Assembly: GCF_900110945.1 (NCBI RefSeq)
Contig: NZ_FOFL01000001.1
Coordinates: 1,054,001-1,118,000, forward strand
DNA from: Devosia sp. YR412
Lineage (GTDB): Bacteria > Pseudomonadota > Alphaproteobacteria > Rhizobiales > Devosiaceae
Reading direction: 5' to 3'
DNA length: 64,000 nucleotides
Of the stretch, positions 26,684 to 44,717 are shown in pieces. The position numbers were made by a program, and so were the translations under genes. Position 1 is the stretch's first letter, and every line of letters starts with the position of its first letter. The notes beneath the pieces are model-generated. The model searched no databases. It saw nothing but the letters and a program-made list of their open reading frames with translations, and was not told where the DNA came from.

Positions 26684-26689
26684 CGAAGA

Positions 26690-28000
26690 TTACTTTCCAC
26701 GAAGCGGGAAGAAAAAGCCACGTGCATGACGTTTGGGCCAATTGAACGGGACGGACGCATCCTTCGTCGCCTCGCGCATCAACCTGCCAAAGCTCTGTAC
26801 CGAGGTTTGAGTGTCTTGGGTTTGCTCGCAGTATAAATCGTACAAGTCGAGCGACGGTGCACCCTGCGGTTGAAGAACGCGACCCACCGCCTCGCTATCA
26901 ATGTCCAGCCGCCTGGACCAACTATGCACGCTGCTTTTGCTCTCTGACTGACTACCCCTGCCAAAGATCTCCAGTCGGACATCCGCCAGGGGCGAGGCAC
27001 CGAATGGGTCGATCGAGCGCCACAAGGCTTTGAAGTCGGTGGCGTTGATATCGTCCCAGATCCCAGTGTTCCCCGCCGCTGCCGAATTGGCGCGGAACGT
27101 CATCTCGTAGAACCGGCGGTTGCCGCTTTCATCGGGAACGAGAGCGGCGACGGACATGTTGGAGGTTCCGATGAATGTTGCTCGCTGTTGGGTACTCAAT
27201 TCCCGGTTCGAACGCATTCCTCGGCCTGTCACATCCTCGCCAGTGATCCGGTTCTTAACGACAGGGATGTTGTGGGCACTAAGCTTTTCCATATCGTCGA
27301 CAACGAGCACAGTATGCCGAAACACGTGGATGGAACGAGGGTCCGCAATGTCGGAGAACAGAACCGACTTAGCGAGCTCGGCCATCGGCTCAACCAACCG
27401 GTTGACAAAGGTGGTCTTGCCTACACCCTGCTGCCTGCTCACAATGACGGGCATCAAGTGGTCAGGAACAGGGAGTTTTGAGAGCTTGCGCTTGACCTGA
27501 TAGATGAAGTGACACAGCACCTTGGTGTTGATATCCGCGTCACCGTCTAACATTTTGGCGAGCAGATCTCGGAAAGATGCGACCGTCAATTCGCATTGTC
27601 TGTCGGATTGCGTGGGGCACGCAATGCCATCGACAATAGACTTCCTTCTATCTCGCCCATCGTCGCGCAAGACCTTGCGCAGCGCAGCATTCAAAATCTT
27701 CGTTTTATGGGGCGAACACGCGAGCAAGAGGTCATCAATAACCGCTTGTGCCGCTGGTGCGGCGGCAGTGGCAACAGTTGCAATGTCAGCAGCAGAGCTG
27801 GCGGGGATTTCAAGGAGACGGATGTCGCCGTCGCTTCCCACATATAGGTCGTTCGCTTCGAGGTAGGCCCGGATCTCCAACTCGGCAGGATTAGGTGCTC
27901 CTGCGTAAATCTGAGAATTGGTGTCGGACGACACACTGTCTGCGTCCAGCTGGACGTGATCGATAGAAACGGGGAGATTATCGTGATGGCTGGCGGCCAT
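26690..28000 (-). CDS. VapE-like P-loop ATPase (virulence-associated E domain)
   Basis: A 436-residue protein. MPVIVSRQQGVGKTTFVNRL carries Walker A, TVLVVDDMEKLSAHNIPVVK carries Walker B, and RATFIGTSNMSVAALVPDESGNRRFYEM is the sensor/arginine region typical of VapE-type domains found in phage and satellite primase-helicases. It lacks a visible primase domain; the first ~120 residues are low-complexity and Ala-rich. The last ~120 residues are unassigned and end FFFPLRGK. It is the first gene of a three-gene minus-strand operon with the two clamp-loader-like genes. Role inferred: DNA-associated motor or helicase. Confidence 0.75.
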   Translation of the reverse strand: MAASHHDNLPVSIDHVQLDADSVSSDTNSQIYAGAPNPAELEIRAYLEANDLYVGSDGDIRLLEIPASSAADIATVATAAAPAAQAVIDDLLLACSPHKTKILNAALRKVLRDDGRDRRKSIVDGIACPTQSDRQCELTVASFRDLLAKMLDGDADINTKVLCHFIYQVKRKLSKLPVPDHLMPVIVSRQQGVGKTTFVNRLVEPMAELAKSVLFSDIADPRSIHVFRHTVLVVDDMEKLSAHNIPVVKNRITGEDVTGRGMRSNRELSTQQRATFIGTSNMSVAALVPDESGNRRFYEMTFRANSAAAGNTGIWDDINATDFKALWRSIDPFGASPLADVRLEIFGRGSQSESKSSVHSWSRRLDIDSEAVGRVLQPQGAPSLDLYDLYCEQTQDTQTSVQSFGRLMREATKDASVPFNWPKRHARGFFFPLRGK

Positions 28001-28513: not shown

Positions 28514-31066
28514 TTAATCGCCTTTCTCCAGCCTAACGCTGGGAGGCGCGAAACGAGGCGTGGCGTTATCGATGCGATCTATAAGGGACAGTTTCTCTGC
28601 ACTGTGGGCACCCGCACGCACGATATGAGGCAAAACATCGCCATGCAACTGTGCCCGCAGTTGGGACCATCGTTCCTTGAGGACCTGCCAATTGTAGTCG
28701 TCATAGGTCCCCTGGACGACAACCGGGTGGATCACGATGCGAGGCGGATCTCCAACAGCCCCCCTACTCTCCCACTCCCGTAACTCTTTCAGCCAAAGAC
28801 TATCCTTGCGGTCAACCCGCCCGATTTGCTGCTCTACAACGCCAGGATTCCACTCTGCATGCAGCAGGACTACCGTACGGCAGGCTTCATGAAGGTTCAG
28901 TCCCTCACGACCAACGCGCGACTGGGCTATCAGTACCATGGGCCAACTTGCGGGCCGGTTGAACGCTGCCTGAAGCAGGCGCCGCGTCTGCGGATTTGTC
29001 GCGCCCGACATCATACGCGCAAAGTTGCCCTCGCGCCCTGAATAGTCAGCCAGATGCAATGCCAGACGCGCTTGTAAGGTCTCATGACTTTCCTCTTCGT
29101 CGTCGCCCGACAATTCCCCAATCAGTGCCTTAAATAGCATCAGTATCTCATCGCCAGTCCAAGGATGTGCTGACGACGGACGACGAGCATCTAGCGCCTC
29201 AAGCAGAGAGCCGATGTCGCCGTGTAGTTCCTGAGCTGGATCTGGGGCCAAGAAGCGCACCAATAGTGCTGCCAACGCGTCATGCTCGGCCAGCATTTCG
29301 ATTTCACGATGTAAGCGCGCTAGCTCCGAACGCCTGGCATTGGACCATTCGCCATATCTCGTAGCCAGAATGGCATCGATGGCTGCGATCCCTGCTGCTG
29401 GTGCCGCCAATTCTTGGTCCCGTGCCGCAGCCAATACTGCGGCAATGCTCTCCTTATGGACAGACTTGCCAGGCCAATGCTGCCCATCGCGCAACCGTCG
29501 GAGCATTTCTCGAGCGTCTAGCAGCTTGGTGAGGGCGTCCATCGGCTTAATGAACCGCCCAAACACGAGCACCTTCTCGCCGCGCGTAGCGTAGCCCTCA
29601 ATCAGCCGCGTCGCAGCCAAAATTGCCGGGTGATCGTAAATATCACCGGCGTCCTTACCGAACGCATCTAGCCAAACTTCGTGAGTACCCTCATTGCCTT
29701 CATCTTGGCTCAGAGGCGTGTCGGCATCCTCGTCGCTCGATAGGCCAAAGCCATATCCCTGTGCCACCGAAATCCTGGCTCGTTTAATGCGCTGATCGTC
29801 TTGCGGTAAAAAAGACAATGCCTCCGCAGCGCAAAACCGTCGGAGCCAATCGATTGTGAAGCCCTCATTTTTCGGCACAACGATCAAGTCCTTCACAAGA
29901 CGATAGTCTCCGAAGCGATCTTGGAAGGATTGGAACTCGGGATCGTCACGCTTGTCGCGCCGTATGACGAAGGGCTGCAGTGCTCGACGAAACTCTGTCG
30001 CTGCGCTTTCGAATGCCGAGGTAAGCGGGTTGTCCAGCTCCTCCCGCTTGATGCGCTGGACACTTTCAACGTAACCGCGGATCCACTTTGCCAGTTCGCC
30101 CAAATCAGACACGTCTCGATCATCGTCGCGGCCGCTTATTCTCTCCAGCGTGTTGACCCATTGGTCTGCTTCCAACTCGACCGGTGTCGCGGTCATTCCT
30201 AAGCGGAATGGATCCGAACCCTCCCATGTCACCGGGCCCAAAATGTTGGATAAGCTGGAGTCGCTTCCGCGCGATTTGTGGGCCTCATCGACCACCACCA
30301 AGTCGAACTGACCTAAAGCGTAGCCGATCAGCGGCAAGATTTTGCGCTTATATTCAGCGGCCGATAGCCACTTCTGATCACCAGATAGATCGCACTCTAG
30401 CGCATGTTTCGTGATCGCCTCGGCGATCACTTCAGCTGCCCTGCGGCTCGCGCGAACAAGCTCAATTTCGTTGTTGTAGAAATTGCCGCGTACAAAGTTG
30501 CGGCGCCGCCCCTCAAGAAGACGAGCTACATTTGGCAACAGCTCCCGTCGCCATCCATGAGCCGCATTTTCACCGCCATGAGGAAATCGCATCGCCGCGA
30601 AGGTGTGAGAAATCATCACAACGCTCTCGCTGCTCCAGTCATTTTCTGGGAGTTCCCGTTGCTGCCGCCGATCGTTCATCCACTTTTTGTGGTTTTCGAT
30701 ACGCGTCGCATTACCCTCAGGATCTCCATCGCGCAGATAGCCCGAGATGAAGCTATAGTAACTGCGCAGCGGCAAAAGCGTGCGGTCGTCTTGTCTAAAG
30801 CGACGAAGCTCCTTTTGCCATTGAACGCCCAACCCTGCTGGCAGAACGATGGCGGAGCGACCACCAGCGCGTCGCACTGCTTCGATGAGCGCAACAGCGA
30901 TCCGCGTCTTGCCCATACCCACCTCATCGGCCAGCAGAGCAGCGCGTTGGCCCGCTCGAATCCGGCGTGCGAGTTCGGCCAAGGTTGACCTTTGACCAAG
31001 GTCCAGCAGCTCAGTTTGCTGCACTGCAAACGCATCTAGTTCTTCGGCGACAGTCTCCCAATTCAT
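28514..31066 (-). CDS. SNF2/RapA-like superfamily 2 helicase
   Basis: An 850-residue translocase. Motif I LLADEVGMGKTRIAVALIE (about residue 47), motif II VVVDEAHKSRGSDS (about 260), motif III region FRLGMTATPVE, then the second RecA lobe with KVLVFGRF, motif V SRVGREGLNLHEACRTVVLL and motif VI QQIGRVDRKDS. This order is that of SNF2/HepA (RapA) ATPases found in several phage-defence systems. ATG at 31066 overlaps the stop of the PLD gene (ATGA); the codons before it are inside that gene. Last gene of the seven-gene operon. Inferred to move on DNA and feed the neighbouring nucleases. Confidence 0.88.
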   Translation of the reverse strand: MNWETVAEELDAFAVQQTELLDLGQRSTLAELARRIRAGQRAALLADEVGMGKTRIAVALIEAVRRAGGRSAIVLPAGLGVQWQKELRRFRQDDRTLLPLRSYYSFISGYLRDGDPEGNATRIENHKKWMNDRRQQRELPENDWSSESVVMISHTFAAMRFPHGGENAAHGWRRELLPNVARLLEGRRRNFVRGNFYNNEIELVRASRRAAEVIAEAITKHALECDLSGDQKWLSAAEYKRKILPLIGYALGQFDLVVVDEAHKSRGSDSSLSNILGPVTWEGSDPFRLGMTATPVELEADQWVNTLERISGRDDDRDVSDLGELAKWIRGYVESVQRIKREELDNPLTSAFESAATEFRRALQPFVIRRDKRDDPEFQSFQDRFGDYRLVKDLIVVPKNEGFTIDWLRRFCAAEALSFLPQDDQRIKRARISVAQGYGFGLSSDEDADTPLSQDEGNEGTHEVWLDAFGKDAGDIYDHPAILAATRLIEGYATRGEKVLVFGRFIKPMDALTKLLDAREMLRRLRDGQHWPGKSVHKESIAAVLAAARDQELAAPAAGIAAIDAILATRYGEWSNARRSELARLHREIEMLAEHDALAALLVRFLAPDPAQELHGDIGSLLEALDARRPSSAHPWTGDEILMLFKALIGELSGDDEEESHETLQARLALHLADYSGREGNFARMMSGATNPQTRRLLQAAFNRPASWPMVLIAQSRVGREGLNLHEACRTVVLLHAEWNPGVVEQQIGRVDRKDSLWLKELREWESRGAVGDPPRIVIHPVVVQGTYDDYNWQVLKERWSQLRAQLHGDVLPHIVRAGAHSAEKLSLIDRIDNATPRFAPPSVRLEKGD

Positions 31067-32862
31067 TTGTGATCTGCCTCCCTGTCCCAAAGCGATGGAC
31101 ATGACGCGAGGCCCCAGACCTGCTTTACATCTGCAAGTGCCGCACGAAGGATCGTGTCTTGGGTTCGCGGTGGCCTCATGCGCGGATCCGCCAAAATAGA
31201 AAGCGGGTCTGCGCCGGCGCTGCGGAAAAACTCCAGCATCGCATGCTCTGTTTTTACGATGTCGCTCAGATTGCCACGCAGCTCACGACACCAGCGCTGC
31301 CAGTCTCTTTGATCAACGCGCTTTTGCGCCTCGCTGATTTTGACCAAGAGATGCATCATCCTCCGAATAGCATATGCGGATTCTGGAGCCCCTGCTGATG
31401 GCTGATCAGTCACAATCGGCTCTTCCCCCTCTGGGGCATCATCCGGTCGATCTATCTCCTGGGGTTCAGGAAATGTTGCCAGACCCGCTAAGATATCTTC
31501 GACAGTAAGCTCTGATCGACGCGGCACAACCAAGACACCCTCCGCAATGACCGGCAGACGCCAACCACCATGCGCCAACGTCACAATGGACGGCGGGGGG
31601 CCAGGCCATTCACACGGCGTGCAAACCACTTGATTTCCCGCGTCTACGACATCGATCTCAGCACCATCGGGGCCCATGAGCACCCCATCGCGCCAAACCA
31701 ACCAAGATACAGGTGGTTGCTCTGTCGGCTCTTCGGGAGAAACAAAATCGTCGCCCGGCCGTAGCGCCTTCAAGGTCACTGTGTTTTCGAACTGCAACGG
31801 AAGCATTATGGAAATGCCGGCCTTGCCACGCCAGGTGGCGTTGTCTGGTAGATCAATGACGACGCCAGCCTCAAGATTACCACCTGAGCTGGCTGCTGTT
31901 TCAAACCCCACCCGACTTAGGTTGCCCGATCCCAGGTACAGCTTGCCCTTTACTTCCTCGTTGGCGTTAAGTTTGGCGACCAGAACAAATTTTGCATGAA
32001 GTTTTCCGTCCTCGCCATGCTTCTCCGAGAATGCCCGTCGCAACGCCCAGCCACGACCTGTGAGTGCTGTGGCTCGTTCGGCAATCCCTTGGCAGGACAG
32101 TGGGTTGAGAAATAAATCGAGCGTAGCATTCTTGGTCAGCGCCTTGTCCTTAACGAACGCTTCACGCAACCGCTCAAGCAAACCAGCATCGCCGTCGCCA
32201 GCGGCTTCGAAGTAACCGGAGCCGACGATCAAACGGTTCGCCTTCGTTAGACCGCTCACTCGCTCAGTCACCTGGGACAGGAGAGGTTGCGTTCTGCTGT
32301 CAACGAAGCGAGGCGCCAAATCGGTCTTGGGCAGCAACGCAACGGCGTCAGCGAGCAAGCTATCGGGTCGATGCCCATCATACTCCTGTTCAATCAATGA
32401 ACAGTCGGCCCTTCGTCGGAGCCATGAGAACATTTTCCAGGCCGCCTGAACATCAGAACAGTCTTGGTCGCTAGGTTGCGCGAGATCGACATCTATCGAC
32501 CAGAACAGATCAATGCTGTCGGTCAATGGGTCCTGGGTCCAATTGCCCGTACTGACCACCAATCGGATGACATATCCCCGGCCCTCTCGCTTCCGAAAGC
32601 CAAGCAGTGCCACCTTGGCATGAAGCAAGTTGTATCCTCGCTTCTCCAACCGCATCCACATCCACGCCAGACCCGGTATGTCAGACTGTGCATCTATCGT
32701 GGGATGGATGAAAGCCGCGAGCGCAGGCCGAGCAACCTCACCTGAGAATGTGCGCTTGATCTGATCCAAGACTTGCTTAGTTGCCGTAAAGCCGGTGATG
32801 AAGCCAAAATCGCCAATACAGTCCTCTGGCGGCATGAAGAGCGTATAAAGGGTTGTTTGCAT
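31063..32862 (-). CDS. Phospholipase D-like nuclease
   Basis: A 599-residue protein with two HKD catalytic half-sites: LLHAKVALLGF followed by VVSTGNWTQDP (about residues 78-110), and KLHAKFVLVAKL followed by LYLGSGNLSRVGFE (about 285-320). Together they form one active site in PLD-superfamily nucleases. The C-terminal 250 residues are not assigned. Its start overlaps the upstream stop (TAATG) and its end overlaps the SNF2 gene start (ATGA). PLD nucleases next to SNF2 helicases occur in DISARM and dpd loci, but the other partners of those systems are absent. Confidence 0.85.
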   Translation of the reverse strand: MQTTLYTLFMPPEDCIGDFGFITGFTATKQVLDQIKRTFSGEVARPALAAFIHPTIDAQSDIPGLAWMWMRLEKRGYNLLHAKVALLGFRKREGRGYVIRLVVSTGNWTQDPLTDSIDLFWSIDVDLAQPSDQDCSDVQAAWKMFSWLRRRADCSLIEQEYDGHRPDSLLADAVALLPKTDLAPRFVDSRTQPLLSQVTERVSGLTKANRLIVGSGYFEAAGDGDAGLLERLREAFVKDKALTKNATLDLFLNPLSCQGIAERATALTGRGWALRRAFSEKHGEDGKLHAKFVLVAKLNANEEVKGKLYLGSGNLSRVGFETAASSGGNLEAGVVIDLPDNATWRGKAGISIMLPLQFENTVTLKALRPGDDFVSPEEPTEQPPVSWLVWRDGVLMGPDGAEIDVVDAGNQVVCTPCEWPGPPPSIVTLAHGGWRLPVIAEGVLVVPRRSELTVEDILAGLATFPEPQEIDRPDDAPEGEEPIVTDQPSAGAPESAYAIRRMMHLLVKISEAQKRVDQRDWQRWCRELRGNLSDIVKTEHAMLEFFRSAGADPLSILADPRMRPPRTQDTILRAALADVKQVWGLASCPSLWDREADHK

Positions 32863-34073
32863 TACGCAATTCCCTCATGCCGAGTAACACCTGGATTGGC
32901 TTTCCCAGATAGCTCCGTGGCTAAGCAATGAAGGTTGTACAGCCGAAAGAGCTGCGGGGCGAATACATCATCTTTCGGCGGAATACCTTCCTCTCCAAGC
33001 TCATCATTTCTTTTAAGCTCGCCGGCCGCTGCCCCCAATCGCAACTGGTCGCCGTGCCAGCGAATGACCGTTCCATCGCGCTCTGCTAATCGTCGCACAA
33101 GGTGTGGTGGATCAAGGCTGGCGAGCTCGGCGAGGAAAGCCTTACTAACTGGCTCGTCTGCGCCTCTGACGCGATCACCAAGGCGATCCGTTAGACGACC
33201 TAGTGCCTCAATTTCCTCTTCAGCGGCGGACGCAGCTTGTTCCTCCGATAGCCGAACCGCTTCGTTGTCGTCGCGAAGCTTCAAGAGCCGCTGCTCAAGG
33301 CGATCAAGAACAGACAGTGCCGCATCCCGGATTTCCATGAATGCCGCGCCACCGCGCAAGTCGCGCCAATGGTCGTCGTCAACACCAGGCGGTGGCCGCG
33401 TGTTTTCAAGCTGCTGCGAGGAAGGGCCGGTTCCCAACGAGACCAAATTGCGCCTGCGCGTACTGGCCTGATCTTCCCCATCGATAAGCCTTGCGAGGAT
33501 CAATTTTCGCACTTCAGGGCGAACATCTTCGGTCGGGCTTATCGCGGCTATGACTTCGCTAAGTCCACGCGGGTTCTTGCCGTTAGCCCAGGCGAGCAAC
33601 GTATCACGGTAGTGTTCTACAATCGGCAACTCGAGCATCCGCTTGCCGGCCGTGTGAAGCTGGAAAGCGCCATAGCGGCTGCCTTGCGCAAACCCCAAAG
33701 CGACCAACGGCTGGACCATAGCCATACGGATTGGTTGAACGACATAAGTGCCGCGCTTACGAAGCTTCTCAAAGCTCCAGTCAGTCAGTCCCTGCAGCTT
33801 ACGCTTTCCGCGCACACGCCGATCAATCGGACCGTCCTTGGCTTGACTCATAGCCAGAGCTTCGATGGCGTTTCCAACGGGTAGCGCAGGTTGCTGAAGC
33901 TTCTCAGCAATCGAGACCGCTACTACAGACCACACGACGGGCATGGCGAACCACATGCCACCCAAACCCGGAACGGCGGCGTCGTTGAAATAACGAACTG
34001 CTGCGCCAAGCTCCAAATTCTGCTGACGTCGCTGCGAAATAACCGCATCCGGCGACAAAATTCCCCAAGCCAC
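32862..34073 (-). CDS. Unknown protein embedded in the helicase-nuclease operon
   Basis: A 403-residue protein with no domain I recognise. It starts at a GTG that overlaps the AddA-like stop (TAGTG); longer in-frame extensions are shadows of the AddA gene. Visible features: a hydrophobic stretch near residue 40-55 (GGMWFAMPVVWSVVAVSI), a basic segment (DRRVRGKRKLQGL) and a Glu/Arg-rich probable coiled coil at about 230-310 (DRLEQRLLKLRDDNEAVRLS, EEEIEALGRLTDRLGDRV). It overlaps the PLD gene by one base. Position suggests a structural or specificity subunit of the same machine. Confidence 0.7.
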   Translation of the reverse strand: MAWGILSPDAVISQRRQQNLELGAAVRYFNDAAVPGLGGMWFAMPVVWSVVAVSIAEKLQQPALPVGNAIEALAMSQAKDGPIDRRVRGKRKLQGLTDWSFEKLRKRGTYVVQPIRMAMVQPLVALGFAQGSRYGAFQLHTAGKRMLELPIVEHYRDTLLAWANGKNPRGLSEVIAAISPTEDVRPEVRKLILARLIDGEDQASTRRRNLVSLGTGPSSQQLENTRPPPGVDDDHWRDLRGGAAFMEIRDAALSVLDRLEQRLLKLRDDNEAVRLSEEQAASAAEEEIEALGRLTDRLGDRVRGADEPVSKAFLAELASLDPPHLVRRLAERDGTVIRWHGDQLRLGAAAGELKRNDELGEEGIPPKDDVFAPQLFRLYNLHCLATELSGKANPGVTRHEGIA

Positions 34074-37000
34074 TATTTCAGTCCCATTGTTTGCGGATGA
34101 AGCCCAACCGCCGCAAAGTCGACGACTTCCAGCGTGCCTTGATCGACCCAATGAATGGCGACCTGCTGAAGCGGCTGATTGGGCATCAGCTGAGAGACAA
34201 TTCGCCCATAAGCTGCGAGCTGTGGCCAATACCCACCAAGCCCAGTCCCTGCTCCTCCGGTCTTATGATCGATCAAAATCGAGCCGGCGGCATTGGTGGC
34301 CAGCAAATCGATCACGCCTGGGATTTCAGCCCCTCCCGCCGTGCGCCCGAGAAAAGGCACCTCACATTCAAACTGTTTGTAACCTTTAGCTTCGAGCCAA
34401 AGTCTGATGGCCTCTGCGCGCTCACTGACGAGCCCCAAGACCTCCGAACTAAGCCCCGTCGCTTCAGCCAGCGCTGGCCCCAGGTCTGGCCGTGTCAAAT
34501 ATGTCCTCAGTGCTAAATGCAACACGGTGCCCCGATCTATGTCGTTTGTGGACTTCGCCCACGGTTCACCCAACACAACCGCGTGGCTCTCTGGGACGTA
34601 GCCCAACGAAGACGATTGGGAGGGCTGAAGTCGCCATGGCGTTAGACTGATCGAGGGCAAAGGCGTAGCGCGACCCATCTCGGGTAGGCCCGTGGCTTGC
34701 CGCGCAACATATGCGGTAAAGCCAGCCTGCTCTGGAAGGTTGGTGATCAAAGCAGCGCACTCAACGTCGCCGATAGCAAGACTATTTGCCTTACGGCGTG
34801 GCCGGCATGCGTCCTCGAAAACGTGAAACAGGGCGCGAGCCAGCTGGGCGTCGTCCTCGCGGTCCTTCATAAACCCTGGCCATTCAAGGATTAGCCTATC
34901 CCTAGCCCTCGTCAGCGCTACATAGAGTAAGTTCCGTGCGTTGGTCTCAAAATCACCTCGGCGATCTTCGACAAACCGAGTTTGAGCCTCTGGGGCAACC
35001 ATCGTCGGAGTATGGATCAACTGCGCTGACTCAAGGACAGCAGCTATGTCGTTGATATTGTCCAGCGCTTCAAATCGCGTCGAGGATGTCCCCGGTCGCT
35101 CCTCAATGCCGTTGTCAAATTCCGCTACAACGGTGATCGGCCACTCTCGCCCTTTAGAGGCATGCCAGGTCACTATCTCAACAGCATCCGCACCGATGGA
35201 CGATGGGTCCGGACGGCGATCAAAGTCACGCTCACCTCCCTGCGCATCCAGCCAGCCCAGAAAGACTTTTGCAGTCTCCCCGTGAAATCCCGAGGCAGCC
35301 TTGAGATCTCGGTGCGCAGCTTCAAACGCTTCAGCCTCGGCCTGAAGGCGGAGCAAGTCGGCACGACTTTGGGACCCATCAACAAGCGACGCTGCCCAGC
35401 GGTAGACTGCTGACGCTTCAAGAACGAGTTCCAGAGCCACAGAAACTGGCACTCCAACCAGCCGATCCGAAAGCTCAGCAAGGCGGACGAGAACTGGATC
35501 CTCGCGCAACGTTCCATCAGCCAGGTCCGACACTGCCTTTTGTAGGTCCAACGGATCGGGACCTAGCGTACGCAACACCAGTGCTGCGTGTGTGTCAGAT
35601 GGATTTGCAGCAAAGCTCAGCGCGGCCCGCGCAACTTGGATTATGAGGCTTCCTGCCCAACCATCTTCTGCAATTCTGACCGGAACGCCCCGGGCCCGCA
35701 ATTCTTGGGCATATCGCATAGCTGTAGAATGACGGCAGACAAGCAACGCTATGTCTGAAGGTTTCGCTGGGCGCTCAGCTTGCGTCGTTCTATCGGTGAC
35801 CAGTTCCCCATTGTTGAGAATCTGAACGATGCGTTCAGCCACATGCTCTTGCGGCTTTGCGAAAGCCTGAACATTTCGACCTTTGCTCGCGTAAAGAACT
35901 TCTAGCGCCGGGCCGTCGACGGCGCTGCGGGTTGGCTCGAGTCGGTTGTATCCGCTTCCAAACAACCCAGCGCCCATGGAATTGATGAACTCCATCATCG
36001 CAGGCGTTGAGCGCCAATTTGAACCAAGTGGCTCAGTCGCATCCGGGTTGGTCGCCGCCAGAGCTTGCGACAATCTTGGATCGGCTCCCTGAAAGCCCAT
36101 AATGGACTGCTTCACATCGCCAACGAGCAAACTGCGGGGCGCCCTTGAACCCAATTGCCAGAGCAAGGCGAACTGAACAGGATTGGTGTCCTGGAACTCA
36201 TCGATGATGACGCAGTCAATCTCACCCAACACCGCGTCGCGAACCAAGCTATTCGTTCGCAACAGCTTTTCGGCACCTGTGATCATGTCAGCAAAATCTA
36301 TGAGACCGAGCGCTTTCTTGCGCGCCTCATATGCAGTCATCACCTCTTGGGCGCACGATACCAAGCATTGAAGATGGAGCTTTGCGTCCTCGAGCGGCCC
36401 TGGATGACTTGGCAGGACATCAGCGGCGGACATAATCGTCGTTGCCAATTCATCGTAACCAGGCGGGGTTTTGCTACTCCTGTTTGATAGGAACAGGTTG
36501 CGGAGGCTTTGCCAGATCGTCCAATCGCGATCGAGCAGGTCTGGCGATCGAACCACCCGTGCAAAGAGCTGGGCTTCCTTATCGAGCCGTTCTCTCGGGG
36601 TTTTTGCCGTCACGGTTTCCATGCCGCCATTCGGAAAGGCGGTGGTCATTGCCCGGACGCAAGAATGAAGAGCTGCCGCTGCTGCACTAGCGTCACTCAA
36701 AACGGGCCCATACAATGCGTCAAGTCGCGTTAGTGCGGGCGCGGTAATGTGTGGGGATCGCCCGTTATCGCCCAGACCTCGGAGCAAGTCGATCATCGAC
36801 AAAACTCTGCCGCGTAGGGCATCCTCGATTGTATCGCCCGACTGCCAATTGGCTTGGTATCCGAAGCGGGCTGGTTCCGCCTTTATCGGATCAAGGGCCG
36901 TGGCATGAGCAAGACACTGGCGAATCAGTAGATCCCGCTCAGCATCACCGAGATGGCGCGGCTGGGGTGATGCGCCTGCCGCCAAGGCATGCTCGCTCAG

Positions 37001-37258
37001 CAGTCTCAGCCCTAAACCGTGGATGGTTGACACATAGGCGCGCTCAACGGCCATTGCCTCCGTCACCAGACCATCAGCCAGCAAGCCCGACCGAATGCGT
37101 TCACGTAACTCGCTAGCAGCAGCCTCAGTGAACGTCACAGCCAAGATGCGGTCAGGGCGAACGACTCCGCGCTTCACCCAGTTTGAGAGCTGCGTCTTGA
37201 TGCGATGCGTTTTGCCTGCCCCAGCGCCGGCCGGGACAATGGTCAGTCCTTGATCCAT
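34073..37258 (-). CDS. AddA-like UvrD-family helicase-nuclease
   Basis: A 1061-residue superfamily 1 helicase with a C-terminal nuclease. Walker A PAGAGAGKTHRI (9-20), Ia LAVTFTEAAASELRER, II VIIDEFQDTNPVQF (about 350), III LLVGDVKQSIMGFQGADP, IV LGSNWRSTPAMMEFI, V IVTWHASKGREWPITVV and VI NLLYVALTRARDRLIL are all present. The nuclease motif IPGVIDLLATNAAGSILIDH-KTG (about 975-1000) is of RecB/AddA type. It lies 2 nt after the AddB-like gene. The pair resembles the recombination nuclease AddAB, but neighbours differ from a housekeeping addAB locus, so a defence or mobile-element role is inferred. Confidence 0.87.
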   Translation of the reverse strand: MDQGLTIVPAGAGAGKTHRIKTQLSNWVKRGVVRPDRILAVTFTEAAASELRERIRSGLLADGLVTEAMAVERAYVSTIHGLGLRLLSEHALAAGASPQPRHLGDAERDLLIRQCLAHATALDPIKAEPARFGYQANWQSGDTIEDALRGRVLSMIDLLRGLGDNGRSPHITAPALTRLDALYGPVLSDASAAAAALHSCVRAMTTAFPNGGMETVTAKTPRERLDKEAQLFARVVRSPDLLDRDWTIWQSLRNLFLSNRSSKTPPGYDELATTIMSAADVLPSHPGPLEDAKLHLQCLVSCAQEVMTAYEARKKALGLIDFADMITGAEKLLRTNSLVRDAVLGEIDCVIIDEFQDTNPVQFALLWQLGSRAPRSLLVGDVKQSIMGFQGADPRLSQALAATNPDATEPLGSNWRSTPAMMEFINSMGAGLFGSGYNRLEPTRSAVDGPALEVLYASKGRNVQAFAKPQEHVAERIVQILNNGELVTDRTTQAERPAKPSDIALLVCRHSTAMRYAQELRARGVPVRIAEDGWAGSLIIQVARAALSFAANPSDTHAALVLRTLGPDPLDLQKAVSDLADGTLREDPVLVRLAELSDRLVGVPVSVALELVLEASAVYRWAASLVDGSQSRADLLRLQAEAEAFEAAHRDLKAASGFHGETAKVFLGWLDAQGGERDFDRRPDPSSIGADAVEIVTWHASKGREWPITVVAEFDNGIEERPGTSSTRFEALDNINDIAAVLESAQLIHTPTMVAPEAQTRFVEDRRGDFETNARNLLYVALTRARDRLILEWPGFMKDREDDAQLARALFHVFEDACRPRRKANSLAIGDVECAALITNLPEQAGFTAYVARQATGLPEMGRATPLPSISLTPWRLQPSQSSSLGYVPESHAVVLGEPWAKSTNDIDRGTVLHLALRTYLTRPDLGPALAEATGLSSEVLGLVSERAEAIRLWLEAKGYKQFECEVPFLGRTAGGAEIPGVIDLLATNAAGSILIDHKTGGAGTGLGGYWPQLAAYGRIVSQLMPNQPLQQVAIHWVDQGTLEVVDFAAVGLHPQTMGLK

Positions 37259-37260
37259 AA

Positions 37261-39810
37261 TTATTCCTCCGCCACCGCTTGCTGGACGAAGGCTCGAACC
37301 AAAAGCAAACCATCAGTCAGAGCATAGGGCGTGAAGCCGGCTTCCTTCTTGAAGAAGGCCTCGTCATCGGTCGTATTGAGAACGATCCGCCCCAACTTGA
37401 GCTCACCTAAGCGCTCGCCGAGTTTGGCAACCGCCCCCTCGTTGATCAGCTCTCCCATGTCTCGCGCCGTAGAGCTTGCGACAGGCAAGAAACCCGACGT
37501 CAGCAAACCGCCGTCATTCATAAGGTGATAGCCAATGCCAACCCTGCGACCGACGAGCGGATCCATGCCATCGCCTTCCGACCGCGTCGGGCGCGCGATC
37601 ATATCGCGATAGAGGCCGGCTTGCAGATCCCATCCAGCCTCCATTCTCTTCCTGCGCCCGGCAGTGCCACTTTTCTTGTGATCAACAACAAGCAGACTGC
37701 CGTCCGGCATACAAAGGATAGCGTCGGCTTTGCCTCTCAATGAAACCCCATGCGCCGTTCCGGCCAGCCAAATCTCGTTGCCGACGATCTTGGCGCCGAG
37801 ATTGACCAAATGCTCGCGCCACCTCAGCGCCGCCTGCAAGATATCGCTCTCTAGGCCCCGCCGCTCCATTTCCCACGCCGATCCGCGAAGGAAACCTGCG
37901 TGTCGCCCAAGCGCACGATCAAATATCGTCTGCAACGTCTCGGGCATGCTCGTTGCATCCGGAAAAGCATCACCCGGCACAAACAGGTTCTCGAAAACGT
38001 CGTGGGCGATGTTACCTTTAATGATCACGTCCAGACCTTCGGACGCCCAAGACAGATCTCGCACACCTAACTCTTCCAAAAGCCATGCGAAGGGGCTGAC
38101 CAATAGAGTTTCTAGGCGCGATGGAGACTGTGGTTTCGCAACGCCGTTTTCGTCGAGCCTCAGCGCCAGCAGGTCTCTTCCGGATAGGTCCAACGCGCCG
38201 AGCGGCGACGATGTCGTGGATGGCGGTGGCGGTTGATGATGAGAAATGGGCCACTGCTCGGGCGGCACCGTCGACAAATCGACAATCAAGTCACTCGCAT
38301 CGGGCGACCCATCAAATACTCTCGCCATAAGTGACATGCCAGCAGACGCCGCCTGCCGTGACCCAGCCAAGTCGCGTCTTGGCACCAAGAATGTGACACT
38401 TTGTGCCGCCGCCTGGATCTGCTGGTCAAACAGGGAAAGGCTAGCAGCTAAACCCTCTGCCCGACCGAAAAGCGTCAAGCCAGTTGCTTCACGCACCGCA
38501 ACAACTTCGCTATCCAAAAATAGGGGGTTCGGGCGGGGTCGGCTTGGATAGGCCCCCTCGGTAAAATCGACAACGATCAGGTGAGAGCAGGGCCGCCATG
38601 GGCTCTCACTGGCATTCCAAATGCTGACACCTTCCAGATTTCGGACCGGGTCTCCGATAGCGTGCGGTCCGACTGAAATCGCACGGAGCAGTCCATCCCA
38701 ATCTGGCGTTCCTTCGACCTGTGGTATCGCGATAAGCTCGCGCAAAGCCTGGCCCTGAGAAAGCTGCGAGCAAATGCGGTCAATCAGAAATCGCAGCTGT
38801 GAAAGGCTACTCGCCGAGGCTCGAATGTCATCCCACAGTGCCACATGAGCTGGCGTATCACGCAGGGCTGTACCCCGATAATCACCGCCAGCAAGGCTTT
38901 CGGCTAGATCGCGCCCAATTTGGGGATCCCAAGGCATGACCGGCGACAACGCCAAGCTAGCAAGCACCATGGACGGCGTCGGTGAACGCTTAGCCAAAAG
39001 CAAGAATAGCGCCGTCTCCCCCAGCACATCTCTTTTCGGAAGCTGTCCCGGCAGACCTGAAAGTGGGACGCCTTGATGCGCGAACGCCCGCTCCAGAAGC
39101 CGTGTGTTACCCGTCGTCATAACCGCGATCGAGTTTGCGGGCTCACCGGCCTCGATCATCATTCGGGCCCGGGCAGCAGCAAAGTTAGCGCAGGCGTTGG
39201 GGTCCCTCAGTCCGTAAAAGGAGATGCTGCCATCCCGTTTGCCAACTTCGATGGTCGCTTCCGTGAGCCCACCCTGCACGGCGTGAAGTCGCGTGCCAGG
39301 GGCCGCTAGTCGACTGCCTTCTTGATTTGGAACCGTGCCAAACTCGCTTTTCAGTCGATAATAGAGCGCCCGCATCGCGGCTGGCGCCACAGGATCCAAT
39401 GATCCTTCGACAACAGGTAGTGCACTCAAAAAGCGGCCATGCGACAACTCCAATGCGTGTCGAACGGCCCCCAAACCTTGAGGCAGCGCCTCCCCTAACT
39501 CACGCCAGATACCAGCTAGCGCTAGAAGATGTCGTCTCGCGCGCCCCTCCGGCATAGCCTCCAAGTTTGGTAGCCGCAGATTCGGCGTCGCAACCACCAG
39601 ATTGGCCAAAGCCGACGACACAGCGGCAATTGTCTCCACGGGAGCGTTGGCCAGGCTATCGGCCCAAACCGGCTCCACAATGCGAGCTATCGCTTTGCCT
39701 GGAAGCCACTCAAGTTCTGCGGGAGCAAGCGCGAGCTCACTCAGCAGCTTGTCATTTGGACGAAAACGCAACCCAGAGCGAGGATCAGACACGAGGAATG
39801 GATAGAACAT
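37261..39810 (-). CDS. AddB-like nuclease/inactivated helicase subunit
   Basis: An 849-residue protein. The middle region carries AddB-like helicase remnants without a Walker A (ICSQLSQGQALRELI, HLIVVDFTEGAYPSRPRPNP, FLVPRRDLAGSRQAA). The C-terminal nuclease domain (about 600-770) has GNIAHDVFENLF, GKADAILCMPDGSLLVVDHK (the D-x(n)-DHK core) and GWDLQAGLYRDMI, so the PD-(D/E)XK site looks complete. The four-Cys iron-sulphur pattern of Bacillus AddB is not visible. It directly precedes the AddA-like gene (2-nt gap) and is probably its heterodimer partner. Confidence 0.8.
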   Translation of the reverse strand: MFYPFLVSDPRSGLRFRPNDKLLSELALAPAELEWLPGKAIARIVEPVWADSLANAPVETIAAVSSALANLVVATPNLRLPNLEAMPEGRARRHLLALAGIWRELGEALPQGLGAVRHALELSHGRFLSALPVVEGSLDPVAPAAMRALYYRLKSEFGTVPNQEGSRLAAPGTRLHAVQGGLTEATIEVGKRDGSISFYGLRDPNACANFAAARARMMIEAGEPANSIAVMTTGNTRLLERAFAHQGVPLSGLPGQLPKRDVLGETALFLLLAKRSPTPSMVLASLALSPVMPWDPQIGRDLAESLAGGDYRGTALRDTPAHVALWDDIRASASSLSQLRFLIDRICSQLSQGQALRELIAIPQVEGTPDWDGLLRAISVGPHAIGDPVRNLEGVSIWNASESPWRPCSHLIVVDFTEGAYPSRPRPNPLFLDSEVVAVREATGLTLFGRAEGLAASLSLFDQQIQAAAQSVTFLVPRRDLAGSRQAASAGMSLMARVFDGSPDASDLIVDLSTVPPEQWPISHHQPPPPSTTSSPLGALDLSGRDLLALRLDENGVAKPQSPSRLETLLVSPFAWLLEELGVRDLSWASEGLDVIIKGNIAHDVFENLFVPGDAFPDATSMPETLQTIFDRALGRHAGFLRGSAWEMERRGLESDILQAALRWREHLVNLGAKIVGNEIWLAGTAHGVSLRGKADAILCMPDGSLLVVDHKKSGTAGRRKRMEAGWDLQAGLYRDMIARPTRSEGDGMDPLVGRRVGIGYHLMNDGGLLTSGFLPVASSTARDMGELINEGAVAKLGERLGELKLGRIVLNTTDDEAFFKKEAGFTPYALTDGLLLVRAFVQQAVAEE

Positions 39811-39927
39811 AACTTACTCAGAAAACGGAACTTGTTCGGAATCAATCAGCCCATCGACAAAGAAATGATACTGCTCAACTTCAAATCGCAATATCACCCT
39901 TGTTGGCATTTAGTTTCGAGAGAGTTC

Positions 39928-42030
39928 TCAAAAGCCGATACGGCGCGTAACACCGGGTTTTGCCAGAACTTCTTTTTCGAGCATGTCCCCTATAAGGATA
40001 GGATCGGTCACTCGGAGCACTTTTGCTCGGCGGGCGACAACATTAAAATCGCCAGGTGTGAGCTGGGGCAAACTCGAGACATGCGGTGGTGCATCCACCC
40101 CGAAGGTTCGACGGAAGATACCTTGTATCTGTGCTGGAACCATGGGAGCAAACTGCACCTTAAATAGAAAGCGGCGCTGCGTTGCGGGGTCAAAACGCCC
40201 TGACAGGTTGGTTGTGGCCGCAAACGGCGTCGGATGTCGCTCCATCCAGGTCAGCATTTCATTGACTTGGCTGATTTCCCAGCTGCGCTGGGCACCGGCG
40301 CGATCGGACAGCAACGAGTCAGCTTCATCCAAGATCAAGAACCGACCTGCTTCAGCAGCTTGGGCAAAAGCATCCGCTATTCGCTTCTCTGTCTCGCCCA
40401 CAAACATACCAAGAAGGTCTGACCCCTTCTTTTCCAGCACTTCGAGCTCCAAGCGCTCTGCAAGGTGACGGGCAAATGCGCTTTTTCCTGTTCCCGGCGG
40501 ACCAGACAGAAGAAACGATAAGGCGCCTGGACCTGCAGCCACGACCTGCTTCTCAAGCTCGGGAAGGTCGACATCGGCCTGCGAGAAACTGGCATCGAAA
40601 GCCATGGTTTCACCCGACGATGACGGCGGGATCACTCGCCCTGCGACCCGGAGCAATGACCGAGTTACAGAGATTGCAAGTTGGCCTGCGTCTTCACTCT
40701 GAACAGCGGCTATTGCGGCAGCTCGCAACCCAGTCCCTAGAAGTGCAGGTGTGGCTGGCAGCCCAGCCAGCCCTTCAAGTGCCAGAGGAGACAATTGGAT
40801 TTTGTGCTCGGACGCGTGGCGCTCAATGATGCGGCGCCTTGTGGAGCGATCTGCATCACGAAATTCTGCGGCGAACAGCATGCGGCGCAGAACAGCTTCG
40901 CCCAAACGGTCGGGATGATTAGTGATCCAGATCATGGGTACAGGACAATTCTCGACGACCCGATTCATAAAGACCTTCGAGCCAGAGCGGCTGAAGCCAT
41001 CCTCGTCGTCGACACCAGAAAAAACTTCATCCGCCTCGTCAATGACAAGAACGACCCTACCCGCACGCGACGCCAATGCTGAGACAAAAGCGAGATGAGA
41101 CAGTCGATCCGACCGCGACGGCTCGGATCGAAAGTTGCGAGCGCTGGCGTCAGTCCGCCGTTCCCCGATGAACACGACGTCAGCTGCAATTTCAGAAGCC
41201 ACGAGCTTTGCAAACTCGGTCTTGCCCGTGCCAGGCGCTCCATAAAACAACAGACTCGCGCCACTCTCACCGCGTTCAAGAGCTCCATCGAGGAGGGTCA
41301 AAACCGTTCGGCTGCTCGCCCCTAGATGGTCGAAGTCAGCCAACGAAAGCTCTGTTTTGGAGGCCTGGCCCAAAAGCGAATGGCGCAGCACCTGTGGGTC
41401 GCTTGACCTTGTCGCAAGCAGATCAACTACGGTAGCGGATGCTGCAACGTCCCCGCCTCCACGGTCTTCGATGAGACCCAGCTGGACAAGCGCGCCCCGG
41501 CGGTCGGTAATGCCCCAGCTTTCGCGTGGTGTCAGTCCAGCCATCCTGGCCGCGGTAGTGGCCAGAACTTCGTCGTCGCTATTGTGACCAACCATTACCG
41601 CGTCATAAAATTCGAAAAACGGTTGGACACGGGTCATCCGAACGACGGCGCCCAGAAAGGCACTCTCGCTAACGCTCAAACCTAATGTATCGGCGACCCA
41701 ATTGAGACGGGTTTGAAACGCCGAAGGCGTCGGACGCTTGGCTGTATAGGTTGGGAGATCTCGCATCGTGTACTGCCATTCGATCAAGCTCGGGAACTCC
41801 CGACTTGCCTTGCTTCTTCGCAAGATGGCTTCTAGTGGCGCGACACGAAAACCCAACAGATCACGATGGTTCTGATACCACTTCAGGAACGATTCCGAGA
41901 TGGCGTGGCCCCGTTGGCCCTTTTCAGGCAGCAATGCTGCAAGAGCATACCGGCGAAGAACATCCTGCTCATAGGCACCAAACGGTGCATCAAACAAAGC
42001 TGTCCATTGAGCGCTCAAACTGCGAAGCAT
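39928..42030 (-). CDS. Tandem AAA+ ATPase (two Walker modules, CDC48/SpoVK-like)
   Basis: A 700-residue protein with a ~230-residue unassigned N-terminus and two AAA+ modules. Module 1: LLFYGAPGTGKTEFAKLVAS (about residue 260), VVLVIDEADEVFSG and WITNHPDRLGEAVLRRM. Module 2: FLLSGPPGTGKSAFARHLAE (about 510), RFLILDEADSLLSDR and an arginine-finger region FDPATQRRFLFKV. Both look catalytically intact. ATG at 42030 follows GGGGG and a 9-nt gap from the DUF4258 stop. Proteins like this remodel protein or nucleoprotein complexes. It precedes the AddB-like gene by 117 bp in the same orientation. Confidence 0.85.
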   Translation of the reverse strand: MLRSLSAQWTALFDAPFGAYEQDVLRRYALAALLPEKGQRGHAISESFLKWYQNHRDLLGFRVAPLEAILRRSKASREFPSLIEWQYTMRDLPTYTAKRPTPSAFQTRLNWVADTLGLSVSESAFLGAVVRMTRVQPFFEFYDAVMVGHNSDDEVLATTAARMAGLTPRESWGITDRRGALVQLGLIEDRGGGDVAASATVVDLLATRSSDPQVLRHSLLGQASKTELSLADFDHLGASSRTVLTLLDGALERGESGASLLFYGAPGTGKTEFAKLVASEIAADVVFIGERRTDASARNFRSEPSRSDRLSHLAFVSALASRAGRVVLVIDEADEVFSGVDDEDGFSRSGSKVFMNRVVENCPVPMIWITNHPDRLGEAVLRRMLFAAEFRDADRSTRRRIIERHASEHKIQLSPLALEGLAGLPATPALLGTGLRAAAIAAVQSEDAGQLAISVTRSLLRVAGRVIPPSSSGETMAFDASFSQADVDLPELEKQVVAAGPGALSFLLSGPPGTGKSAFARHLAERLELEVLEKKGSDLLGMFVGETEKRIADAFAQAAEAGRFLILDEADSLLSDRAGAQRSWEISQVNEMLTWMERHPTPFAATTNLSGRFDPATQRRFLFKVQFAPMVPAQIQGIFRRTFGVDAPPHVSSLPQLTPGDFNVVARRAKVLRVTDPILIGDMLEKEVLAKPGVTRRIGF

Positions 42031-42039
42031 CAATGCCCC

Positions 42040-42321
42040 CTATTGACGGCGAAAGCGACGAAGGCTGCGAGCGGCAGTGATGAGCGTGCCGTCTTCGCCA
42101 ACCACCAAGTAGGCATCCAAGCTCTTCTCGATCCTTGCGAAACGCTTGCCCCCAATTTCCTCGCGAACCCGTTCTCGAGTGCGCCTGTCCACAAAGTACA
42201 CATCGGCACCGCGAGAGCGCTCGCACCGCCCGTATGTAAGCAGGGCTTCAACAACTTCGCTCCGGATGCCACGTTGATGCATGCGGGTGGTGGCATGTGC
42301 ACTCAAGTTTAGGCCATTCAT
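42040..42321 (-). CDS. DUF4258 family small protein
   Basis: A 93-residue protein: LSAHATTRMHQRGIRSEVVE is the His/Arg-containing DUF4258 opening, followed by GADVYFVDRRTRERV and DAYLVVGEDGTLITAARSLR. Function is unknown; members often occur beside toxin or defence genes. ATG at 42321 follows GGGAGCGAGAGA. It is first in the minus-strand operon, 9 nt before the tandem AAA+ gene, and divergent from the WYL-domain regulator. Confidence 0.72.
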   Translation of the reverse strand: MNGLNLSAHATTRMHQRGIRSEVVEALLTYGRCERSRGADVYFVDRRTRERVREEIGGKRFARIEKSLDAYLVVGEDGTLITAARSLRRFRRQ

Positions 42322-42438: not shown

Positions 42439-43470
42439 ATGGCCTATGAAAAAGCCAAGGAATTACTAGACTTAGCGTTGCTCCTCGCCAGCAGTCGGTA
42501 CGGCATGTCCGCCACAGAGATCGAGCACTTCCTCGCCAACAAAGGTCGTGGCAACCAGTCGAGCTCGGCCCTCATCCGCCAGCGACAAAGAATGTTGAAC
42601 CAACTCGACGAGCTATTTGGGCCGGCGCTCGAGATGTCGATTGACGCAGATGACGGCCGTTGGCGTTGGTCACTCAGAACCAAAGATCTAGCCAATCTGC
42701 CGCTGATCGACCCTGCCGACCTGGCAGCTATCGAACACGCGACCCAAATCCTCTCAAGGTTGGGCGATCGGGATAGCGCAGAGCGGCTATCGCGGATCAA
42801 CATCTTGCTTCAGACGACGCTTGATGCCCGGCGGAGGGCGAGCTTTGAAGTCGACTTTGAGGCCTTGCGGGACTCCCAGACGATTGTCGCCCAGCCTGGC
42901 CCTCAGATCGAAGTTAGCCGTGATGTTGAACAGGCGGTGAGCGAAGCCATTCTCAAGGGCCGCTGCCTGGAATTCGTGTACCAGAACCGAGACCAAAAGG
43001 TGCGACGTAGTGTTGAACCCGTGGGTGTCCTCCTCGGACCGCGCAAGTACCTCATAGCTCGCTCTACGAACTCACCAGAATGGGCAGACGCCAATCACTG
43101 GCGCATGGATAAGATCCTCGAGCCAAGGGTCTCCGATCAACCAGCAAGGTCGATGCCAGAAGGGTTCACCCTGGCCGACCATGCTCGTCGCTGCTTTGGC
43201 GTGTTCTGGAGGGAGGAAGAATATCAGGACGTTGAATGGCGGTTCGCTGCCAGGGCGGCCGTCTCAGCAGCGAACTGGCGCTTTCATCCCGATCAAACGG
43301 TCGAGCAAAACTCCGATGGCTCGATTACGGTTCGGTTCAAAGCCTCGGGCCATTACGAGATGGCTTGGCACCTCTATCAGTGGGGGGATGCGGTTCAAGT
43401 TATCGCCCCCAAAGCCTTGGCGAAGCTCGTCGAAGGATACCAACGCGCCGATTTTACGGCCCTGCCCTAA
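42439..43470 (+). CDS. WYL-domain transcriptional regulator of the island
   Basis: A 343-residue protein. The N-terminus (KELLDLALLLASSRYGMSAT, LIRQRQRMLNQLDELFG) is a winged-helix region; the WYL sensor domain spans about 165-260 (LEFVYQNRDQKVRRSVEPVG, GPRKYLIARS with Y-L of the motif, HWRMDKILEP), and a C-terminal WCX extension follows to about 340. Such regulators repress BREX, CBASS and other defence operons and respond to nucleic acid. It is divergent from the DUF4258/AAA+ operon with a candidate operator between, so it probably represses that operon. Confidence 0.85.
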   Translation: MAYEKAKELLDLALLLASSRYGMSATEIEHFLANKGRGNQSSSALIRQRQRMLNQLDELFGPALEMSIDADDGRWRWSLRTKDLANLPLIDPADLAAIEHATQILSRLGDRDSAERLSRINILLQTTLDARRRASFEVDFEALRDSQTIVAQPGPQIEVSRDVEQAVSEAILKGRCLEFVYQNRDQKVRRSVEPVGVLLGPRKYLIARSTNSPEWADANHWRMDKILEPRVSDQPARSMPEGFTLADHARRCFGVFWREEEYQDVEWRFAARAAVSAANWRFHPDQTVEQNSDGSITVRFKASGHYEMAWHLYQWGDAVQVIAPKALAKLVEGYQRADFTALP

Positions 43471-43494: not shown

Positions 43495-44475
43495 TCAGAT
43501 CACAGCTAAGATCACTTTACGAACCTCATCCCTCAGCGCGAAAGTTCGAAGTCTCTCGAGCTGAACTAGTCCCACCTTTGCGTCATCGCGAATGTCGCCA
43601 AAAGGCAGCAAATGTTTGAGTGGCGGGGCCTTGAGGTTGACGTAGGCTGCAGATTTGGTGACGCGCATCACCATGTCCTCATCAAGGAGTGGTTCGATTG
43701 CCTCTGCCAATTCTTGCGCCCTATAGGTCGCTATCCCAAGCTCGCAACCAATCCCTTTGAACTTGTGGATCAACCTTACCTTGGCGCCGCCGCCATAGAG
43801 TGGTGAGAAATAGATCCAACTACCGTCCTTGCCAACTACACCAGGCCTTGGCATGCGAAGCTGCGGGAATTCTGACGAGGCTAGTGACCAATACTGCTCA
43901 TAAAACGCCATCATCGGCGCGTCGGGCAGTCGCTGATATCCTTTCTTGAAATCGGCAATCGCCGACAAGAACACATGTCGCTTGAAAGCTTGTTCTGGGT
44001 GATCCGCGAGAAACGCCACAATCGCCTCATATGTCAGATTGGCATTGATATGCTGCGCGTGGTTCCGATCCAGAGCTTCGAAGTACGCCTTGGGCGACAT
44101 TAGAATAATGCTAACGCGGTCCCATTTTCCCTTGGCAATGCCCTCAGTACCCCGCATCTGGTAGCGCTCAAACTGGCGATCCATCAGCGGCGCGCGGATC
44201 TTGTTTTCGATCAATATGGCGTGCCGACCGCGTTCGCTTCGAACGACAAGTTCAATGTCCGTTTCGCCCAGGGATGTATCAAACACTGACCGGCGCATGG
44301 CAATAATGCTTGCCTCACCCGGTTCACCCGCAAGGTCCAGCAGTCTCCTCAAAAACTGTGGCGAGCTGTACAACAGATCCATCGCTAAGACGTCTGTCAC
44401 GACCTCATCGACACGCGGGATGGTGTCAAAAGCCAATGAGAATGATTGCGTGAGCTGATCGCTGGAAGTGTTCAC
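43495..44475 (-). CDS. PD-(D/E)XK nuclease-superfamily protein
   Basis: A 326-residue protein with a nuclease core: GETDIELVVRSERGRHAILI followed by ENKI gives the D-x(n)-E-x-K signature; FDTIPRVDEVVTDVLAMDLL precedes it and a Gln-rich QFERYQMRG helix follows. I chose GTG at 44475; a longer TTG-initiated form (to 44571) would add an unconserved leader. It is convergent with the WYL regulator and divergent from McrB. No methylase is next to it. It may act with McrBC or be an independent element. Confidence 0.7.
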   Translation of the reverse strand: MNTSSDQLTQSFSLAFDTIPRVDEVVTDVLAMDLLYSSPQFLRRLLDLAGEPGEASIIAMRRSVFDTSLGETDIELVVRSERGRHAILIENKIRAPLMDRQFERYQMRGTEGIAKGKWDRVSIILMSPKAYFEALDRNHAQHINANLTYEAIVAFLADHPEQAFKRHVFLSAIADFKKGYQRLPDAPMMAFYEQYWSLASSEFPQLRMPRPGVVGKDGSWIYFSPLYGGGAKVRLIHKFKGIGCELGIATYRAQELAEAIEPLLDEDMVMRVTKSAAYVNLKAPPLKHLLPFGDIRDDAKVGLVQLERLRTFALRDEVRKVILAVI

Positions 44476-44717
44476 TGGCAACTCTGATTTTCCTGAGACG
44501 ATTAAGACGCTCAAAGAGATTGGCAAAACCTTCAGTAGCTGCCTTGGCAGACGCGTCCCATAGAGATGCAACGTGCAGTGGCCAATGTATTGCTTGGGTC
44601 GCCAGCGTCCTGCTGCCTGGGCCGCTGACTATCCCGTCAGTTGCAGGAGCATGGCACAGCCTAGAACAGTTTCGAAGGACATGAGAGCTTCGATACCACA
44701 ATGAGGGGGATGATTCT

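Follow-up and report, generated by a model that had tools for sequence, protein, structure and literature searches.

An AddAB-like pair joined to an Azaca-like gene triad in Devosia: a candidate antiphage cassette

Introduction

RecBCD/AddAB enzymes guard the cell against linear phage DNA, although Chi restrains them and phage inhibitors block them, and AddAB is also known as a family of repair enzymes. Phospholipase D (PLD) nucleases and SNF2 proteins occur in the defence systems DISARM and Dpd, and Azaca and Shango were reportedly described by Millman and colleagues in 2022. Here we analysed a 64,000-nucleotide stretch of the Devosia sp. YR412 genome (contig NZ_FOFL01000001.1, positions 1,054,001 to 1,118,000; hereafter, the window), in which an AddB-like and an AddA-like gene are followed by a gene of no known family (X), a PLD-family nuclease and a SNF2-family helicase. 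These five genes are conserved as a cluster, and we lean slightly towards reading them as a mobile cut-and-shred cassette that probably acts against phages and consists of two exchangeable modules, the AddAB-like pair and the X-PLD-SNF2 triad. The association of the genes was observed directly, and from it we infer a defence function and a mechanism.

Results

The first-pass annotation of the window had described an operon of seven co-oriented genes at 28514-42321, and all seven open reading frames (ORFs) were found there on the minus strand. They are given below, core genes first, together with the adjacent divergent gene (nt, nucleotides; aa, amino acids):

37261..39810, minus strand: AddB-like protein, 849 aa, a short AddB with a C-terminal PD-(D/E)XK nuclease; core gene 1
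34073..37258, minus strand: AddA-like protein, 1061 aa, UvrD/RecB-type helicase plus PD-(D/E)XK nuclease; core gene 2
32862..34073, minus strand: X, 403 aa, GTG start at 34073, no known family; core gene 3
31063..32862, minus strand: PLD-family nuclease, 599 aa, two HAK...GN motifs; core gene 4
28514..31066, minus strand: SNF2-family helicase, 850 aa from the ATG at 31066; core gene 5
39928..42030, minus strand: tandem AAA+ ATPase, 700 aa, AAA match 6e-39 (Pfam); optional accessory
42040..42321, minus strand: DUF4258 protein, 93 aa; local gene outside the conserved set
42439..43470, plus strand: WYL-domain regulator with a WYL/WCX match; divergent, probable control gene

The domain assignments held, and the conserved co-oriented cluster does combine two RecB-type nuclease domains, a PLD nuclease and a SNF2 motor. 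Overlaps of 1 or 4 nt, which had been ascribed to most junctions, applied to three of the six (AddA/X and X/PLD, 1 nt each; PLD/SNF2, 4 nt), the other three being gaps of 2 nt (AddB/AddA), 9 nt (DUF4258/AAA) and 117 nt (AAA/AddB). Since the overlaps were confined to the last three junctions and the AAA/AddB gap was wide, the tight unit begins at AddB and not at DUF4258.

Scanning genome_contigs with six close X proteins returned 18 loci (loci carry L numbers here), all in records titled as alphaproteobacteria. Relatives of AddA, PLD and SNF2 were present in 18/18 and AddB was visible in 16/18, the contigs of L039 and L041 ending inside AddA. The order AddB-AddA-X-PLD-SNF2 was found in 17 of the 18 (two of them cut) and X-PLD-SNF2-AddB-AddA in L034, while a single IMG/VR match carried X-PLD-SNF2 and then AddB, where the stretch ends. 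Five of the seven plasmid records with X also had AddAB (L008, L009, L010, L017 and L018); the 11 plasmid records with AddB comprised five with the triad, five without it and one fragment (L020). Thus, the core conserved as a cluster consists of AddB, AddA, X, PLD and SNF2, with DUF4258 and the AAA+ gene outside. The proposal of a seven-gene unit of fixed stoichiometry did not survive these results: the DUF4258 protein, whose PF14076 match scored 25.1 bits for a cut-off of 25, had no relative at the 46 loci searched, AAA relatives (28-41% identity) appeared at some loci only (L008, L009, L014-L016, L018, L042, L043, L045, L049 and L103), and AddAB and the triad also occur apart.

The cassette is rare. 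Among 397 genomes of the order, X was found in the Devosia genome itself and in G244 (a weak match in G217 was left aside). AddB, searched at 1e-25 in 385 genomes of the class with at most two candidates scored per genome in the rows shown, was found in its own genome only, among the matches listed, and had no match among 50,697 phage records. Conjugative plasmids accounted for 7 of the 11 plasmid records of the window AddB. At L011, L017, L046 and L050, AddB, PLD, AddA or X was split or interrupted (in the case of PLD by an insertion of about 2.3 kb), so broken cassettes are not rare.

Tree comparison suggested that the two halves have changed partners. AddA clade I (21 rows, support 100) held the Fuscovulum locus L009 and excluded L018 and L034, whereas the SNF2 and PLD clades (19 rows each, support 100) held L018 and L034 and excluded L009, whose triad shares just 28-33% identity with that of the window. 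On either tree, the presence of AddAB requires at least four changes. These conflicting splits indicate that modules were exchanged between loci, and a pairing that was broken and then remade points to a functional link between the halves.

The AddAB-like pair is a second copy, distinct from the housekeeping AddAB of the genome. In Pfam, the window AddB-like protein matched PDDEXK_1 (1e-16) and the AddA-like protein UvrD (1e-43) and PDDEXK_1 (8e-5). The genome contains four PDDEXK_1 matches, two in the window and two at C2:58-62 kb, where the AddA scored 1017.7 bits against the alphaproteobacterial AddA model (cut-off 860.75). In contrast, the window AddA scored 156.1 bits against TIGR02784, below the cut-off of 860.75, and the window AddB 27.6 bits against TIGR02786, below that of 486.5. 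The pair shares with AddAB/RecBCD the helicase motifs, two PD-(D/E)XK domains and the adjacent addB-addA order, but it falls far under the addA and addB family cut-offs, is linked to defence genes and has an AddB of 849 aa compared to the 1022 aa AddB of the same genome. In an AddA tree of 37 rows (built by a quick search with SH-aLRT as the sole support measure and rooted at the midpoint; the program flagged long branches), a branch with SH-aLRT 100 separated 6 housekeeping from 31 linked rows. All nine aligned AddA rows from clades I and II kept Walker A, DEFQDTN, QGAD, WRS, VAxTRAR and D984/D997-x-K999, and the AddB nuclease residues H603, D696, D710-x-K712 and Q730 were invariant in 10/10 rows of the same clades; judging from these motifs, the AddA helicase and both nuclease sites are predicted to be intact.

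The second half of the core resembles Azaca. The PLD gene had no Pfam match at 0.01, and its assignment rests on a PADLOC match to ZacB (4e-9, compared to 1.5e-171 for a genuine ZacB) and on the two HAK...GN motifs, kept in 8/8 aligned members. Profile-profile comparison with ZacB (hhalign) gave 89% probability and E 2e-6 over 289 columns. The SNF2 gene matched ResIII (2e-11), SNF2 (3e-7) and Helicase_C (1e-6) in Pfam and, in PADLOC, PDC-M27C (2e-22), DrmD (3e-17) and ZacC (1e-14; E = 0 for a genuine ZacC). Scanned as its 455-aa ORF, X had no match in Pfam, PADLOC or NCBIfam, nor did its three distant relatives at L009, L015 and L016 in PADLOC. Its AlphaFold2 model (pLDDT 64.6, moderate confidence) consisted mainly of helices, two short hairpins being possible winged helices, and had no match among PDB folds at E <= 0.001 (FokI, at rank 3 with E 1.2, was not used); the best values of a PDB sequence search were 0.044 for X, to a designed protein, and 0.55 for PLD. 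At L018:10303-13317 (Paracoccus versutus), X and PLD read as a single ORF, a possible natural fusion that, if real, would support contact between the two.

Like Azaca, which consists of ZacA (DUF6361), ZacB (PLD) and ZacC (helicase), the triad has three genes in the same order with a superfamily 2 helicase last, an A gene of ~390-400 aa and a PLD gene of ~600 aa that is distantly homologous to ZacB. It differs in the SNF2 protein, with 850 aa compared to 1019 ZacC model positions and better scores to PDC-M27C and DrmD, and in X, which lacks detectable homology to ZacA (hhalign probability 0.3%, nine X against nine ZacA sequences, although the two may share a very remote kinship). As X appears unrelated to ZacA, filing the cassette as Azaca was rejected; sequence comparison makes the triad Azaca-like, its A subunit being either a different protein or one diverged beyond recognition.

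DISARM, BREX and Gabija identities were likewise rejected on PADLOC and NCBIfam scans. The locus shares with DISARM and Dpd the joint presence of PLD and SNF2-type proteins, but no operon protein matched DUF1998 (DrmB) or a methylase, and the window PLD reached 13.1 bits against DrmC for a cut-off of 133. BrxC, PglX and PglZ were absent from the PADLOC families listed for the operon proteins; the cassette adjoins brxL elsewhere, in type I BREX with accessory genes, whereas the window operon comes without any BREX gene. With no DUF1998, methylase or BREX core match, the initial exclusion of DISARM and BREX stands. Gabija also pairs a UvrD-family helicase with a nuclease, and its GajB models match the window AddA; however, there was no GajA match in the operon and this AddA has its own RecB-type nuclease domain. 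AddB and X matched no PADLOC 2.0 model, and for these two the statement that the operon belongs to no named system was upheld; it has to be narrowed for the triad, which is Azaca-like, and elsewhere genuine Azaca is itself preceded by AddB-AddA. Among the literature matches listed, in which most subscription papers were not covered, no paper joined AddAB with Azaca or described the cassette. The accessible portions of a BREX survey (PMC12839542) contained no AddB, UvrD, RecB or Azaca in the main text and no description of the cassette in the auxiliary-nuclease section, and those of a YprA preprint (PMC12458937) contained no AddB, AddAB, RecB or Azaca and one UvrD.

AddAB-like pairs of a distant group, clade III, were found beside other defence systems. 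At L028, genuine Azaca (ZacA 3.8e-132, ZacB 1.5e-171, ZacC 0) is joined by a clade III AddB-AddA. ZacA occurred in 3/249 genomes of the phylum and 7/385 of the class (a weak match in G853 was left aside), and clade III AddB-AddA lay close to it in 7 of 15 distinct loci with ZacA: immediately upstream and co-oriented at L028, L030, L033 (= L061), L060 and L062 (contig cut inside AddA), one gene off on the other strand at L027/L089, and divergent with two small genes between at L097. Seven loci showed no AddB-AddA within the stretch seen (L025, L026, L029, L031, L032, L063 and L065, the last two cut on one side), and the contig of L064 was too short to tell. Among the matches listed, AddB lay near at least 11 of the best 40 of 45 ZacA plasmid records (best 60 of 64 for AddB); 19 of these 40 were from Cronobacter, which was absent from the 60 AddB records.

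The L028 AddB matched 64 plasmid records, 40 of them conjugative plasmids. AddA followed AddB in all eight records that were opened, by choice and not at random (at L094 the record stops within AddA; the matches of L090 and L097 are piecewise). The pair stood directly after Shango genes at L091 (SngA 1e-103, SngB 2e-176, SngC 4e-272), with the same annotated order at L092, and directly after type III restriction-modification genes at L093 (methyltransferase 6e-182, restriction enzyme 5e-132). At L095:5513-15152 it followed a CBASS set (cyclase 2e-131, E1-E2 3e-188, JAB 3e-53), possibly in place of the CBASS effector. It was divergent to BREX-I genes at L090, near Azaca at L097, and had no clear partner at L094 and L096. 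A DEAD/DEAH helicase of ~1112 aa, PbeA-like in PADLOC where tested (L027 and L091), followed AddB-AddA as a recurrent partner at L027 and L090-L092. The partners seen for window-type AddAB were the X triad, BREX-I or none. In 10 distinct loci, namely L010, L017 and 8 of the 18 genome loci, brxL was followed after 124 nt by the cassette, and the BREX parts were 92-100% identical to those of L010 (75% for the L017 PglX).

These arrangements allow a broader reading, which we offer tentatively and hold to be somewhat doubtful: a mobile, duplicated AddAB family would supply unrelated immune systems with a common plug-in effector that shreds DNA regardless of Chi, the systems being X-PLD-SNF2, Azaca, BREX, Shango, type III restriction-modification and CBASS (in Desulfosarcina ovata, at the place expected for the CBASS effector). 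The window operon would then be among the most tightly linked forms of this effector.

The same data bear on two other explanations. That the AddAB-like pair and the Azaca-like triad are two independent defence systems sharing a cluster with no joint mechanism is, in our judgement, unlikely, although each half is found without the other and a separate WYL gene lies near AddAB at each of the solo loci L012, L014 and L019; clustering in all 18 X loci in two gene orders, the single nucleotide shared by AddA and X in the window and the identical AddB-AddA-A-B-C layout with genuine Azaca speak against such independence. Still less probable is that the pair is a repair or recombination enzyme for plasmid or island upkeep, unrelated to defence. 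The repair background of AddAB and the many copies on conjugative plasmids, both of the window type and of clade III, would fit this role, but the pair adjoins several kinds of defence operon, and six of seven genomes checked retain an AddA above the housekeeping cut-off (the seventh, G531, belongs to another class).

The McrBC-like, CBASS-like and integrase genes of the island around the cassette are typical defence company. WYL genes were also found at L008, L009, L012, L014, L018, L019, L042, L043, L045 and L049, and an ADP-ribosylglycohydrolase gene recurs upstream of the cassette at L008 (where, in Pfam, it carries a phosphatase-like part), L009, L035, L042, L043, L045, L049 and L103. Next in the window come a PDDEXK_4 nuclease (43495-44571, minus strand), which has a relative close to the solo AddAB in Sinorhizobium medicae (L019:10648-11613), and a McrBC-like pair (44718-48019, plus strand) of an AAA_5 ATPase followed by McrC (PF10117, 6e-34). 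At 49743-52229 (minus strand), a SMODS cyclase lies near a QueC-like protein, the surrounding ORFs having no Pfam match; QueC is listed in type IV CBASS (PMC10952713), which these genes look like. A phage-type integrase (52938-54383, plus strand) beside the defence genes suggests an integrated island. Downstream, VapE-like, DnaX-like (660 aa) and HolB-like (603 aa) genes lie in a row at 22883-28000 (minus strand), forming a clamp-loader-like ATPase operon; it was rejected as part of the system, having no relative at the 46 loci, and its DnaX-like protein had no plasmid match at 1e-30.

Discussion

We propose that the X-PLD-SNF2 triad would recognise invading DNA. X, a likely DNA-binding or adaptor subunit, and SNF2, as a translocase, would engage the DNA first, and PLD would act as the endonuclease making the first break. 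The dedicated AddAB-like enzyme would then load on the PLD-made end and degrade the DNA, and host Chi sites would not halt it. The AAA and WYL genes or, in other genomes, BREX might provide control or a mark of self.

The step past Chi derives from the short AddB. Its profile matched one solved AddB, 3u44 chain B (1166 residues), with E 3e-5 for the whole sequence, residues 177-253 aligning to 290-368 and 417-495 to 605-683 (0.27 and 0.87 for the pieces taken singly). Nothing matched before residue 290 of the chain, the statistics being weak. Comparison with four housekeeping AddB proteins gave 98% probability with query residue 1 at template position 298, at low confidence in the N-terminal part. 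The residues F68, F210 and E129 are presumably numbered on the same B. subtilis AddB as 3u44 chain B. In the portion of PMC4824097 available, F68A and F210A are Chi-binding mutants and E129A a latch mutant, and all three positions fall inside the unmatched stretch. The window AddB thus appears to lack the Chi-reading stretch, which would make the pair a helicase-nuclease without Chi control whose degradation would run past host Chi.

An enzyme of this kind might instead shield the host by clearing or repairing triad-made breaks, limiting self-damage. The dedicated coupling to nuclease systems would suit such a role, as would the triads that exist without AddAB, which may rely on host enzymes. 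We nonetheless consider it improbable, as the retention of both nuclease sites and the seeming absence of the Chi-reading part fit destruction better than repair.

Several observations weigh against the proposed cut-and-shred cassette and its extension to other systems. Two of the seven X plasmid records lack AddAB (Pantoea L015 and Desulfosarcina L016) and five of ten intact AddB plasmid records lack the triad (L011-L014 and L019); with each half found alone, neither depends on the other. Most of the 18 genome loci are closely related, the trees are quick and long-branched, and solo AddAB copies (L011-L013) are scattered within clade I. No methylase was found in the operon that could offer a route to self-sparing. 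As for Chi, the match to canonical AddB is weak, hhalign placed the AddB offset elsewhere than the solved-AddB profile match, and the AddB structure model was poor (pLDDT 52.4), too poor for a structure search; given these three points, loss of the Chi site is something that we infer. The plug-in evidence (Azaca, Shango, CBASS and restriction-modification) comes mainly from the distant clade III, whose AddA shares just 27% identity with that of the window; in a clade III pair, Pfam detected the nuclease domain in AddB but no PDDEXK domain in AddA. Finally, the largely 92-100% identical BREX parts behind which the cassette starts may reflect one spreading element and not ten joinings.

If the cut-and-shred reading is true, a second, dedicated AddAB that ignores Chi and is coupled to cutting systems would explain how single-cut systems achieve full destruction of the invading DNA, and Azaca and Shango, which are poorly understood, would gain a common effector step.

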